Assembly: GCA_958296225.1 (NCBI GenBank)
Contig: OY282456.1
Span: 682,001 to 746,000, forward strand
Origin: an uncultured Dehalococcoidia bacterium
GTDB lineage: Bacteria > Chloroflexota > Dehalococcoidia > Lucifugimonadales > UBA3495
Direction: 5' to 3'
DNA length: 64,000 bases
Part shown: positions 515 to 54,392 of the stretch, piece by piece
Layout of the letters: every line of letters begins with the position of its first letter
Numbering within the stretch: the stretch's first letter is position 1
The notes under the pieces: model-generated
What the model was told of the DNA's origin: nothing
The model's input: the letters and a program-made list of their open reading frames with translations, nothing else
The model's database searches: none
Program-made: the position numbers and the translations under genes

Positions 515-1411
515 TTACCCGCCCCGGTTCACCTCCACGCCGGCCAGTTTCTCAATGAAGTGGAGGATGGCCGAGTGGTCGGCTTCCTGCTCGCCGTCGT
601 TGACCAGGGAACCCAGCATCTGCTGGACCAGCGCCGTCACCGGCAGGGGCACGTTGAGTTCGCCGGCCGTTTGCAGCACGTTGCGGAGGTCTTTCTGGTG
701 CAGGCGGATGCGGAAGCCGGCGCGGAAGTTGCGGTCCAGCATCATGGGCGCTTTGGCCTCCATCACCGCGCTGCCGGCCAGGCCGCCGCGGATGGCGTTG
801 AACACCCGCTCCGGGTCAACCCCCGCCTTTTGCGACAGCACCAGCGCCTCGCTCAGCGCTTCAATGTTGGCGGCCACGATAATCTGATTCGCCAGCTTGG
901 TGATGTTGCCGGCCCCCACGTCGCCGGTGAGCACCACGTTGCCGCCCATCACGTCCAGCGCCGGCTTGCAGCCGTCAAACACGGCCTGGTCGCCGCCCAC
1001 CATAATCGCCAGCGTGCCGGCGATGGCCCCCGGCTCGCCGCCACTGACCGGTGCATCCAGGAAGTCCACACCCTTGCCGGTGCAGGCAGCGCCAATTTTC
1101 TGCGACATTGACGGCGCGATGCTGCTCATATCTATGATTACCGAACCGGCCTCAGCCCCTTCCAGCACGCCATCCGGCCCCAGGATGGCCCGTTCCGAGT
1201 CGGCAGAGTCGGGCAGCATCGTAATCGTCCGCACGCTGCCGGCTGCCGCCTGCGCCGGCGATGACGCCGCCGTGGCCCCCTCGGTAGCCAGTTCCTCCAC
1301 CGGCTCGCCCACGATGTCATAAACCGTCAGCTCGTAGCCCGCCGCCATCAAGTTGCGGGCCATCGGCTTGCCCATAATGCCCAACCCGACGAATCCAATC
1401 CGCTCTGCCAT
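515..1411 (-). CDS. garR: 2-hydroxy-3-oxopropionate (tartronate semialdehyde) reductase
   Basis: A 298-residue beta-hydroxyacid dehydrogenase that should reduce tartronate semialdehyde to glycerate with NAD(P)H in the cytoplasm, linking glyoxylate or glucarate breakdown to glycolysis. The Rossmann motif GLGIMG is at residues 9-14, the substrate loop DAPVSGG is near 122, and the catalytic Lys sits in GAGNITKLANQ near 170. The C-terminal FRAGFRIRLHQKDL and DHSAI stretches favour GarR over 3-hydroxyisobutyrate dehydrogenase. The start at 1411 was chosen over one 14 codons upstream because GGAGGAAG sits at the right distance. The gene stands alone; a more distant family member is at 57468-58391. 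Confidence 0.88.
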   Translation of the reverse strand: MAERIGFVGLGIMGKPMARNLMAAGYELTVYDIVGEPVEELATEGATAASSPAQAAAGSVRTITMLPDSADSERAILGPDGVLEGAEAGSVIIDMSSIAPSMSQKIGAACTGKGVDFLDAPVSGGEPGAIAGTLAIMVGGDQAVFDGCKPALDVMGGNVVLTGDVGAGNITKLANQIIVAANIEALSEALVLSQKAGVDPERVFNAIRGGLAGSAVMEAKAPMMLDRNFRAGFRIRLHQKDLRNVLQTAGELNVPLPVTALVQQMLGSLVNDGEQEADHSAILHFIEKLAGVEVNRGG

Positions 1412-1462
1412 TGCGCTTCCTCCGTTGCCATATCGTAGGTTGCAATTTATCACACCCTGCCG

Positions 1463-2605
1463 CTACGCGCGCAACACCAGCGCCGCATCAACCGCAGCCT
1501 CAACACTCCCAATGTCTGTTGCCATCACATTGCGCAGGGAAGTGGCTGTTACCGACGGCTGGGCGGACAGGCCGGTGACCAGCTGCGCCCGCACGCTCCC
1601 GGCGATTCCCGATTCCACCAGCGCGGCGGCGGCCGTTTGCCAGGTTCCGGCAGCTTCGGCGCCCAACATAACCACGGAACGGCCGGCCGGCGGCGGCAGG
1701 GAACCCGCGGCGGCTTGCTCAACCGACGCGCAGACTGCGGCCAGGGGTGATATGCCGACTTGCGCCAGGGCCAGCCGGTAGAAGCCGGCCGCCGGGATTA
1801 CCGACACCCCAGCGACCAACGACTCCAGTCTGGTCAGCAACCCGGCCGCCGATTCCGCCGGGTCGCCCAACGTTACCACCATTGACCACAATCCGGCCCG
1901 AATGTCGCGCGCCAGCCGGTTGAGCAGCTCATCCCGATTATCCGCTTGCAGCGGCAGCTCCACCGCCCGAATCCAGGGTCGCGCTGCCGCCAACGCCGCC
2001 GGGGAGCCGATGACGTAATCGGCATTGGACAACATCTCCCGCACTTGAACCGGAACGGATTCCCGCCCGCCGGTTCCCAGCCCGGCCACCGTAACCGCCC
2101 GCTCCGCCGCACGGAAGGCCGCCACGTATTTACGGGTTTCCACCACCTGGCGGGCGTGGTTGCCTTCATGGCCGGAGACGCGCTCAATAAGGTCCAGCAG
2201 GGACAGCGCCGGGTAGTTGTTTTCCGGGTTGTAGGGCGTGGCCGGCCGGTTGAGCTGCGCTTCCGACAAACCGTCAATCAGGGCGCGGAACCGCTGGTAG
2301 TTGGCTTCCAGGCGGGCCACGTCCTGGGCGATGCGGTCGGTGCGGGCGTCGAATGCCGGCAGCAGCTCGCGCTCGCCGGAGGCTATCTGCTCCAATGCCG
2401 CGACGAAGTTTTCGGTCAGCAGGTGCTGCATTACCTCCCAGACCGACCAGCGCGAACCCAGAAACGCCTCGGCCTCGCCCAGGCCGGCCAGGGCGTCCCG
2501 CAAAGCGGCGTGGCCGTCATCCAGGCGGCGGAGGGCGCGGCGCTGCCGCTCGGTTGCGGTGAGCGGGCCGTCATTGGCATCGGTGGGCAAATCGTGGGAA
2601 ACCAT
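1463..2605 (-). CDS. DinB-like four-helix protein fused to a CbiE-like tetrapyrrole methylase domain
   Basis: 380 residues in two parts. Residues 1-155 resemble DinB/YfiT metal-dependent four-helix proteins: a first-helix SVWEVMQHLL segment and a GHEGNHARQVV helix supply likely His metal ligands. From about 165 a second domain begins with VTVAGLGTGGRESVP, then NADYVIGS, VVTLGDPAESAAG and VSVIPAAGFYRLALAQVGIS, which follow in order the SAM-binding landmarks of precorrin methylases such as CbiE. Fusion of these two folds is unusual. Activity is unknown; no cobalamin biosynthesis genes are nearby. ATG 2605 has GAGGTG upstream and is preferred to a GTG three codons earlier. Divergent from the VLRF1 gene, with overlapping promoters. 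Confidence 0.7.
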   Translation of the reverse strand: MVSHDLPTDANDGPLTATERQRRALRRLDDGHAALRDALAGLGEAEAFLGSRWSVWEVMQHLLTENFVAALEQIASGERELLPAFDARTDRIAQDVARLEANYQRFRALIDGLSEAQLNRPATPYNPENNYPALSLLDLIERVSGHEGNHARQVVETRKYVAAFRAAERAVTVAGLGTGGRESVPVQVREMLSNADYVIGSPAALAAARPWIRAVELPLQADNRDELLNRLARDIRAGLWSMVVTLGDPAESAAGLLTRLESLVAGVSVIPAAGFYRLALAQVGISPLAAVCASVEQAAAGSLPPPAGRSVVMLGAEAAGTWQTAAAALVESGIAGSVRAQLVTGLSAQPSVTATSLRNVMATDIGSVEAAVDAALVLRA

Positions 2606-2646
2606 CGGGGACACCTCTGCGGAGTGATAATTTCGACGGGAACGCT

Positions 2647-2659
2647 ATTATGGCACAAT
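2647..2659. promoter_or_regulatory. Overlapping divergent -10 boxes
   Basis: On the plus strand TGGCACAAT (2651-2659) is an extended -10 for the release-factor gene at 2705. On the minus strand TGCCATAAT (-10 box 2647-2652) can serve the DinB fusion starting at 2605. The boxes are one base apart, so polymerases probably compete. No convincing -35 is seen for either. Confidence 0.45.
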
Positions 2660-2704
2660 GCGCCATACGCTCCATTCATTTCAGCAATCAGTTATTATGC
2701 CATC

Positions 2705-3505
2705 ATGGCGACCAAACAGCCCCCAACCCTGCCCAACCTTCGCGCCGGGCAACCCCTGTCCGCCCACCGCGTGGGGCGCATCATGGCGGAGCTGCGGGAT
2801 TTGGCGGCGTCAACGGAGGGCGCGGCAACGCTGTACGCGCCGGCCGCAGATTTGGGCGACGGCTTGACTACGGCGGCCTGGGCGCAGGACCGGGGCAGCC
2901 CGGCCTGGATTGCCGCCCTGGAGCGCGCGGGCGACCGGGTGATGCGTTCCGAGACCGGCCTGGCCGCGTTTCGTGTGGGCGACGCCGGGTTAGCCATTTT
3001 GCCGCCCTTTCCGCTGGATGATACTGCCCGGCTGTCCACCGGGATTGCAGACGGGCCGCTGCTGGCGTTGCTAGCGGCTGAATACACTGTCGGCGTGGCC
3101 CTGGTGCGCTTGGGCCGTTACGCCATCGCCGTTTATGAAGGGCAGCGGCTGGCGGCATCCAAGACCGATACGCGCTACGTGAAAGGCAAGCACCACGCCG
3201 GCGGCACTTCCCAGCGCCGGTTCCAGCGCGTGCGGGAGAACCAGATTCACCGGCTGTACACTAAGGCATCGCAAGTGCTCCGGCAGCAATGGCAACCCTA
3301 CCTCAACCGGCTGGATTACGTGGTTCTGGGCGGAGAGGCGGGAACGGTCAACGGGTTCGTCAAGGAGTGTGACCTGCTGCACCGGCTGGCTCCCATTACG
3401 CAGGAACGACGGCTGGACGTGAGGGAACCCAACCGGGCGGCGCTGGACGCGGTGGGGGCGATGCTGTACCAGTGCCGGGTGTATCCGCTGCGGTGGGATG
3501 GCTGA
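2705..3505 (+). CDS. VLRF1-type (Vms1/eRF1-like) peptidyl-tRNA hydrolase/release factor
   Basis: A 266-residue protein of the bacterial VLRF1 family, related to eukaryotic Vms1/ANKZF1 and eRF1, which release nascent chains from tRNA on stalled or split ribosomes. The core RYVKGKHHAGGTSQRRFQRV (near residues 158-178) carries the GxSQ-like loop whose Gln is proposed to position water for hydrolysis. It is followed by the helix ENQIHRLYTKASQVL and the strand YVVLGGEAGTVNGFV. The N-terminus is Pro-rich and short. No ribosome-binding site is evident; transcription probably starts about 40 bp upstream. The substrate is inferred from the family only. No RQC genes are adjacent, although mutS2, a relative of RqcU, is close by. 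Confidence 0.75.
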   Translation: MATKQPPTLPNLRAGQPLSAHRVGRIMAELRDLAASTEGAATLYAPAADLGDGLTTAAWAQDRGSPAWIAALERAGDRVMRSETGLAAFRVGDAGLAILPPFPLDDTARLSTGIADGPLLALLAAEYTVGVALVRLGRYAIAVYEGQRLAASKTDTRYVKGKHHAGGTSQRRFQRVRENQIHRLYTKASQVLRQQWQPYLNRLDYVVLGGEAGTVNGFVKECDLLHRLAPITQERRLDVREPNRAALDAVGAMLYQCRVYPLRWDG

Positions 3506-3561: not shown

Positions 3562-3822
3562 ATGGGGATTGTCGTCAAAGCTACCGCCGATTTAGACCCG
3601 CAGACTTGGCAGGAAGTCGCCGCCGTGCTGGCCGGTCATGGCTTTACGGTTTCCGACGTCTTTCGCCTGCTGCTGATGCACACCGCCGCCGGTAAAGAGC
3701 TGCCTTTCGACTGCATCATCCCCAATGCGGAGACGGTGGCGGCGATGAAAGAGTCAGAGTGCGGCGACCTGCCCACCTGCAACAGCTTTGCCGGGCTAAT
3801 GGCGGACCGGAATAACGATTAG
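3562..3822 (+). CDS. RelB/DinJ-type antitoxin, no toxin partner visible
   Basis: 86 residues. The N-terminal half (VVKATADLDPQTWQEVAAVLAGHGFTVSDVFRLLLMHTAA) is a ribbon-helix-helix DNA-binding domain of the RelB/DinJ type, followed by the usual LPFDCIIPNAETVAAMKESE linker. Such antitoxins bind and block a RelE/YafQ mRNA interferase and repress their own promoter. No RelE-like frame follows before mutS2, so this is an orphan or acts in trans. The tail (CGDLPTCNSFAGLMADRNND) is longer than usual. GGGAGG nine bases upstream supports the start at 3562 over in-frame codons further up. Confidence 0.75.
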   Translation: MGIVVKATADLDPQTWQEVAAVLAGHGFTVSDVFRLLLMHTAAGKELPFDCIIPNAETVAAMKESECGDLPTCNSFAGLMADRNND

Positions 3823-53356: not shown

Positions 53357-54166
53357 TCAAATCATAAAGTTCATCTCCCCCACTATCCGCTCCCCCAGCG
53401 CAACATCCCCCGCGATTGCCACCGACCCGTCGGCCAGCGCCTGCTCTGCCGGCCAGCGGCCGGTGCCCAGGGCGTTGAACGCCGTCAAGTCCATCGTCAG
53501 CCGCGCCGTGGGCGACGCCGGCGCGGCATCCATCCGGTAGGCCCGCCCGCCGTCCATATTCAGCGCGATTGTGCCGCCCACGGCGCCGGCGATCTCGAAC
53601 ACCACCGTCGTACCATCGTCCGGCCTGACCTTGCGCCCGACTACAAAGGGCATCGCGGATTCCGTCCGCCCGTAAGCGTGCTGCGCCACCGGCCCGTCCA
53701 GATGGCCGGGGATGCCCAGGGCGCGGCGGATGTCCTGTTCGTGCACCCAGGCATCGTAGATGCGGACGGCCAGCAAGTCGGTGTAGGGGCCGCGGCCCAG
53801 CGGGTTGTCGGTTTCGGCGGCAAAGTCGGCGGCGGACATGGCCCGCAGGACGGCCAGCCGCTCGGCGGTAATTTCCCGGAACTCGGCCAGGATGTCGGCG
53901 CCGCTGAACTGCCGGCGGTAGTCAACCAGCACTTCGTTGCCTTGCCCCACGTCGTTGCGGACGTGCGACGTATCCGCCGGCTCGTGCTCCGGCGCGGGCC
54001 GGCCCAGCAGCCGGCACTCGCTGCCCACCAGGTGCGACACCTGGTCCTGCACCGACCAGCCGGGGCATTCCGTCGGCGTCGCCCATTGCGCGGCGGTAAA
54101 GTCGGCGCACAGCGCGGCAATGGACCGCCACACCGTTTCCATCAAGTCAACCAATTCTTGCGACAT
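53357..54166 (-). CDS. Maleylpyruvate isomerase-like (DinB-fold, TIGR03083-type) protein
   Basis: 269 residues. The N-terminal metal-binding four-helix domain shows WATPTECPGWSVQDQVSHLVGSECRLLG, then DAWVHEQDIRRALGIPGHLDG, with His residues placed as in mycothiol-dependent isomerases. The C-terminal domain (VVFEIAGAVGGTIALNMDGGRAYRMD...TMDLTAFNALGTGRWPAEQALADGSVAIAGD) is an SCP2-like part usual for the group. Reaction and thiol cofactor are unknown. A Cys-rich small gene and the Rieske subunits lie just upstream, so it may belong to an aromatic degradation unit. Confidence 0.8.
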   Translation of the reverse strand: MSQELVDLMETVWRSIAALCADFTAAQWATPTECPGWSVQDQVSHLVGSECRLLGRPAPEHEPADTSHVRNDVGQGNEVLVDYRRQFSGADILAEFREITAERLAVLRAMSAADFAAETDNPLGRGPYTDLLAVRIYDAWVHEQDIRRALGIPGHLDGPVAQHAYGRTESAMPFVVGRKVRPDDGTTVVFEIAGAVGGTIALNMDGGRAYRMDAAPASPTARLTMDLTAFNALGTGRWPAEQALADGSVAIAGDVALGERIVGEMNFMI

Positions 54167-54191
54167 GGTTCGCGTACTCCATAGAATAGAA

Positions 54192-54392
54192 TTAGACTCG
54201 CACCCAGCGGCATTCCGGCAGATGCCCGCGTTCTCCCCGGTCGGGGCAGGTGCAGGGCACATCGTTGCGGCGCCGGTAGCCCAACGACTCCAGCCAGCCG
54301 TCGAACCCCGGATAAAAACCATACCCGTCGTCGATGGCGCGATAGCCGGCGCGCAAAGCCGCCAGAATTTCATCACGGCTGGGAACTGCCAT
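54192..54392 (-). CDS. Small cysteine-containing protein
   Basis: 66 residues. A helical start (SRDEILAALRAGYRAIDDGYGFYPGFDGWLESLGY) is followed by NDVPCTCPDRGERGHLPECRWVRV, whose CxC-x7-HxxxC pattern could bind zinc. No domain is recognised. It begins five bases after the previous small gene and lies in the Rieske oxygenase run, so it may be an accessory protein. Confidence 0.5.
   Translation of the reverse strand: MAVPSRDEILAALRAGYRAIDDGYGFYPGFDGWLESLGYRRRNDVPCTCPDRGERGHLPECRWVRV

Follow-up and report, generated by a model that had tools for sequence, protein, structure and literature searches.

OvoA is a single chain that combines a DinB domain, an FGE-sulfatase domain and a SAM-methyltransferase domain, the last being a class I methylase. 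In the class III methylase fold, SAM sits between two sub-domains. The DinB/STL superfamily includes BstA (YfiT) of B. subtilis, the mycothiol transferases and EgtB. According to excerpts of PMC5815605, the BstA-type enzymes of B. subtilis have three invariant histidines (H67, H160 and H164) thought to hold a metal; EgtB and a mycothiol transferase both combine an N-terminal DinB domain, which transfers the thiol, with a second domain, which most likely sets the other substrate.

We analysed a window of 64,000 nucleotides (the whole stretch of DNA considered) from a marine Chloroflexota bacterium. It encodes a real fusion of a DinB domain with a CbiE-like methylase domain, hereafter called DINB (Table 1). 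Like the DinB/STL proteins, DINB has a DinB_2 match and three histidines, and like EgtB and a mycothiol transferase it has its DinB domain at the N-terminus followed by a second domain. It differs from them in that this second domain has the class III methylase fold. Like OvoA it joins a DinB domain to a SAM-methylase domain, but a Pfam scan found no FGE-sulfatase domain in DINB. In the open-licence literature we found no paper on DinB with a tetrapyrrole methylase or on a DinB-precorrin fusion, and none on VLRF1 together with MutS2; for a DinB domain with any methyltransferase domain three titles came up, one of them on ovothiol synthase. The parts are known; the DinB-methylase pairing and the half-domain series described below are new to us, as far as that literature shows.

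Table 1. Features of the DINB locus, in window coordinates
Feature	Position	Strand	Details
2-hydroxy-3-oxopropionate reductase	518-1414	-	above two NCBIfam equivalog cut-offs
DINB (P0001), DinB-CbiE-like fusion gene	1463..2605	-	ATG start, 380 aa
Methylase-fold C-terminal sub-domain, residues 273-380	1466..1789	-	this genus only; weakly constrained
Methylase-fold N-terminal sub-domain, residues 168-272	1790..2104	-	retained in half-length relatives
Conserved stripe, residues 223-240	1886..1939	-	common to full and half forms, not CbiE
DinB_2 domain, residues 28-154	2144..2524	-	Pfam; candidate metal triad H61, H146, H150
Gap between divergent DINB and acVLRF1 starts	2606..2704	.	99 bases
acVLRF1 family gene (Vms1-like release factor, peptidyl-tRNA hydrolase family)	2705..3505	+	PF18859, E 4.9e-30
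RelB-like antitoxin, between acVLRF1 and MutS2	3562-3822	+	PF04221, E 6.9e-10
MutS2, 800 aa	3880..6282	+	TIGR01069, 761.8 bits, cut-off 400
Second DinB-superfamily gene	53357-54376	-	by eye mycothiol maleylpyruvate isomerase type

Domain composition and predicted structure

Two Pfam families match DINB above their cut-offs: DinB_2 on residues 28-154 (E 2e-10, 41.6 bits, cut-off 24.8) and TP_methylase (PF00590) on residues 171-287 (E 6.2e-7, 30.0 bits, cut-off 27.8). The top profile match of the second domain is the NCBIfam profile of CbiE (cobalt-precorrin-7 C5-methyltransferase, TIGR02467), on residues 173-347 with E 2e-8. DINB differs from CbiE by its score of 33.9 bits, far below the cut-off of 92.9; the same profile gives 37.7 and 28.3 bits on two other full-length forms. 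At E up to 1, both Pfam families are matched by all 14 members of the genus, and DinB_2 is matched by 14 of 14 full forms and by the 16 half-length forms scanned, two of which score 39.5 and 41.5 bits. With TP_methylase, half forms L016 and L017 reach 24.0 and 16.1 bits, below the cut-off of 27.8, with one sub-domain. Sequence searches of the PDB gave nothing useful, either with DINB alone (best E 0.54) or with its profile (best E 0.13 for CbiF and 0.22 for the DinB-like protein 3dka).

The full form was modelled with AlphaFold2 from 30 aligned relatives (mean pLDDT 81.8, pTM 0.59, a value at which the mutual placement of the two domains is uncertain). In this model residues 168-380 are predicted to adopt the complete two-sub-domain class III methylase fold. 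Its top solved match is the Archaeoglobus CbiE 2bb3 (Z 17.2, 185 residues, rmsd 2.9). Other methylases lie within 1 Z of it and count as tied; the matches also include diphthine synthase and borosin enzymes. For the half form, 16 of the 21 sequences were aligned and used. The 10-residue blocks from residue 171 on have mean pLDDT values of 84-95, and the modelled tail (residues 166-272) matches the N-terminal half of methylases only (Z about 14 over about 101 residues). Methylase matches fill the fold lists of both models. The preliminary description of this DNA had proposed a DinB half followed by a CbiE-like half, with methylase similarity after residue 165. Both halves are borne out by Pfam, and the CbiE-like one also by NCBIfam and the fold match, the full methylase fold spanning residues 168-380 in the model.

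H61, H146 and H150 are invariant in all 30 aligned full and half forms and constitute a candidate metal triad. Judged by these three kept histidines and the DinB_2 match, the idea of a metal-binding DinB domain, also put forward in that description, appears right. DinB_2 has 8 matches in the genome, including the second DinB-superfamily gene of the window. Neither BshC nor EgtD was found in the genome, so that a classical bacillithiol or ergothioneine role, for which these served as marker genes, is unsupported; for EgtD the negative is weak, since the same search detects it in 1 of 14 control genomes, below the cut-off.

Distribution of full, half and DinB-only forms

Among the 99 genomes of relatives searched, 53 match DINB. 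The full fusion, of the 380-aa type, occurs in all 14 genomes of the genus (G000-G013), the other 13 proteins being 65-74% identical to that of the window. Three of these genomes (G000, G003 and G010) are in a single contig. The joining of two separate genes by an assembly error, a possibility raised at the outset, is thereby refuted, and an artefact of assembly or annotation has a negligible probability in view of the 14 of 14 genomes, their differently named records and the three single contigs.

Outside the genus, 21 of the 36 genomes of the family encode a half form. The match to DINB ends near residue 260, in some cases slightly past the stop, and the ORFs have 261-277 residues (L057, the same gene as that read in L022 at 265 aa, would have 451 aa if an upstream start were taken). 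Half forms end at the boundary between the two methylase sub-domains, just past the final strand of the first. Two genomes of one reduced genus (G024 and G034) have a DinB-only protein of 150 residues in the corresponding place beside MutS2. DINB is absent from 13 of the 36 genomes, many of these 36 being incomplete; in G033 the place between acVLRF1 and a NIPSNAP-like gene is empty. In L030 (genus g2), the old glycine loop of the SAM site, at about residues 167-182 of DINB, reads GLGNGGLGNGGLGNGD, having expanded into a small tandem repeat.

In a tree of MutS2, two sister groups appear inside the family: one contains the 12 rows of the full-form genus, the other the 18 rows of the half-form genera together with G033, which lacks DINB. 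Support is 100/100 for the family and 91/93 for the half-form group. The long MutS2 branch (3.4) of the DinB-only genus g12 (L072 and L073) prevents its placement. Its genomes, of 1.3-1.7 Mb, have an extremely diverged MutS2 and lack acVLRF1, with the DinB-only protein in the same place. We infer that the direction of change was from full to half: in the simplest history the family ancestor would have had the full fusion, and a single truncation at the sub-domain boundary would have occurred on the stem of the half-form clade.

More distant relatives were searched with profile A3. Among 393 sampled genomes of the class (E 1e-12) 7 match, and among 400 sampled genomes of the phylum (E 1e-10) 3 match; in both samples, which include the window's own genome, the only two-domain protein is the window's own, and as at most 4 candidates were scored per genome, rare fusions elsewhere may be missed. 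The methylase domain of DINB may have come from the lineage's own CbiE; methylase-only matches in other families score comparably in these searches.

Comparison of the methylase domain with genuine CbiE

The genome has seven TP_methylase matches including DINB (at 0.683 Mb), three others being clustered at 1.436-1.441 Mb. A separate CbiE (L002), at 3.105 Mb, scores 116.9 bits and passes the family cut-off of 92.9, so that for cobalamin the cell can do without the fused copy. DINB further differs from CbiE in having no cobalamin gene context. Consistently with the preliminary description, the neighbours that were searched yielded no further gene of the pathway; DINB has acVLRF1, MutS2 and 2-hydroxy-3-oxopropionate reductase genes around it instead.

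As a yardstick we used 24 CbiE proteins of the order (one of them a fragment), 45-100% identical to the CbiE of the window genome. Profile-profile alignment to these local CbiEs covers 197 columns for the full forms (E 1.2e-17) and 106 columns for the half forms (E 4.5e-17). Out of 70 aligned near-invariant CbiE positions, a status that partly reflects kinship because all 24 proteins come from one order, 18 are retained in at least 13 of the 14 full forms. GxGxG is retained in 14 of 14 full forms and GDP in 13. The P of GPG is present in 2 of 14 and the T that follows GPG (motif 1) in none. The PG(V/I)SS loop as a whole is also found in none; a shift of two residues allows PG, both serines being absent. 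Most CbiE hallmarks of the C-terminal sub-domain are absent too. Thus, of the SAM-binding landmarks that had been described as present in order, GxGxG and GDP stand, whereas the P of GPG, the following T and the PG(V/I)SS loop do not.

The half domain has its own pattern of conservation. At 19 positions a residue is conserved in at least 27 of the 30 full and half forms, and 12 of these residues are rare or absent in the 24 CbiEs. Six of the 12 form a stripe (N223, E226, R230, R233, R236 and W240), located on and just past helix 221-236 in the predicted structure.

Selective constraint was estimated within the genus by pairwise dN/dS. The median values are 0.10 for the DinB domain, 0.15 for the N-terminal half of the methylase and 0.33 for its C-terminal half (91 pairs per part, 90 usable for the C-terminal half), compared with 0.093 and 0.077 for the two halves of true CbiE in 12 of the same 14 genomes (66 pairs, 64 and 65 usable), all these values being rough because dS is near 1 or above. 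On these estimates the constraint on the C-terminal half of DINB would be clearly weaker, about four times less than on the C-terminal half of true CbiE.

A working SAM-dependent enzyme modifying a small cofactor, as suggested in the preliminary description, is therefore unlikely: in the sister genera the protein is retained except for the methylase's C-terminal half, and in the full forms this half is clearly less constrained than its counterpart in the genuine CbiE of these genomes. The corresponding alternative is an active bifunctional enzyme in which the methylase binds SAM and methylates a small molecule also handled by the DinB metal site, the half forms being a separate, derived, non-methylating branch. 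The whole methylase fold is intact and confidently predicted, with GxGxG and GDP retained, which leaves SAM binding possible and which we count against a non-catalytic domain. A dN/dS of 0.33, being below 1, also means that the C-terminal half is still selected, and class III methylases take very varied substrates, as the diphthine synthase and borosin enzymes illustrate. However, all 14 proteins have lost the PG(V/I)SS loop, the motif 1 T and most of the hallmarks of the C-domain; the fourfold weaker constraint speaks against catalysis; and the half forms, which have no C-domain, still possess the DinB part and the new stripe. Since SAM sits between the two sub-domains, the half forms are expected to lack half of the pocket. 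We consider the bifunctional enzyme improbable.

Another alternative is that the methylase is the vestige of an accidental fusion, decaying stepwise from full to half to none while DinB does all the work. The states found at the same genome place (380 aa, 261-277 aa, and DinB alone with 150 aa beside MutS2) fit such a decay, as does the rise of dN/dS toward the C-terminus. Pure decay, however, would not make a new conserved stripe, and the half domain keeps its 19 positions, 12 of them newly acquired; it is also predicted to fold well and has persisted across many genera. This explanation is thus unlikely in our opinion, although less so than the bifunctional enzyme.

Gene neighbourhood

The product of the gene diverging from DINB scores 117.2 bits against NF041024 (E 7.7e-34), below the cut-off of 125. 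It carries GGTSQ, which fits GGxSQ, the motif of the acVLRF1 family in the excerpted text of PMC6514570. The next large gene encodes MutS2, whose B. subtilis counterpart splits collided ribosomes (excerpt of PMC10897456). The RelB-like antitoxin gene lying between the two is present in 7 of 14 full-form loci, with little space for a toxin ahead of MutS2.

We compared 37 DINB loci (14 full, 21 half and 2 DinB-only). Upstream of DINB lies acVLRF1 in all 14 full loci and in 18 of the 21 half loci, and the gap between them is 56-110 bases in most linked loci. MutS2 is within reach of DINB in 12 of 14 full, 18 of 21 half and 2 of 2 DinB-only loci. In four half-form loci (L054, L056, L059 and L062) acVLRF1 comes first, followed by MutS2 and then DINB, all on one strand, and the last two are 10-40 bases apart; L052 has a similar order with 871 bases between these two genes. 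As a control, we considered the other sense genes recurring in at least 10 of the 14 full loci, namely the reductase, found near DINB in 14 of 14, and three genes picked out by eye, among them an enoyl-CoA hydratase and a peptidyl-prolyl isomerase. All of them, the reductase included, recur in 0 of 21 half loci, and the tie of DINB to acVLRF1 and MutS2 is thus better kept than its surroundings.

DINB could be taken for an obligatory partner of acVLRF1. We rejected this idea, since 8 of the 36 family genomes outside the genus have acVLRF1 without DINB (G017, G018, G020, G023, G026, G031, G033 and G037). The remainder comprise 21 genomes with both, 2 with DinB alone and no acVLRF1 (G024 and G034) and 5 with neither. 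In 3 of the 21 (G021, G022 and G028), acVLRF1 and DINB are on different contigs, with no MutS2 or acVLRF1 within reach of DINB. We also examined 40 acVLRF1 loci of the order, leaving out one (L147) that came from the family. Among the 39 loci outside the family, MutS2 is adjacent to acVLRF1 in 8, in more than one gene order, and DINB is found in none.

Conclusions

DINB has probably been repurposed, given that its methylase looks dead, that it is halved in sister genera and that ribosome-rescue genes adjoin it. We are somewhat inclined to regard it as a DinB/STL-type metalloprotein whose old methylase domain has turned into a non-catalytic binding module. A CbiE-type methylase domain would have joined the C-terminus of DinB and then lost methyl transfer. 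The remaining alpha/beta sub-domain, with its new Asn-Glu-Arg-Arg-Arg/Trp stripe, may serve as the binding module and, after the scheme of the two-domain STL proteins, would present a substrate or partner to the DinB metal site.

acVLRF1 and MutS2, as rescue factors, are conserved neighbours to which gene order is the sole link, no sequence relation having been seen. On that basis a role of DINB in ribosome rescue is possible, and we suggest only tentatively that its partner or substrate belongs to the acVLRF1-MutS2 rescue process. A more specific proposal, which we hold to be rather unlikely, is that DINB belongs, as a lineage-specific component, to a ribosome-rescue module of Chloroflexota and that its new arginine stripe is the binding site for RNA, for peptidyl-tRNA or for a ribosomal partner. 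MutS2 would then split the ribosome, acVLRF1 would free the peptide and the ex-methylase sub-domain would guide the DinB metalloenzyme.

In DINB we see a new architecture of modest interest, which may be tied to ribosome rescue. It offers a natural series (full, half and no methylase) along which catalysis by a class III methylase seems to be lost while one of the two halves acquires new conserved residues. Should its proximity to acVLRF1 and MutS2 reflect a functional link, a recurring bacterial rescue pair would gain a third component, and an uncharacterised DinB protein a cellular setting. Were the ribosome-rescue proposal true, a vitamin B12 enzyme domain would have become a non-methylating adaptor in translation quality control.
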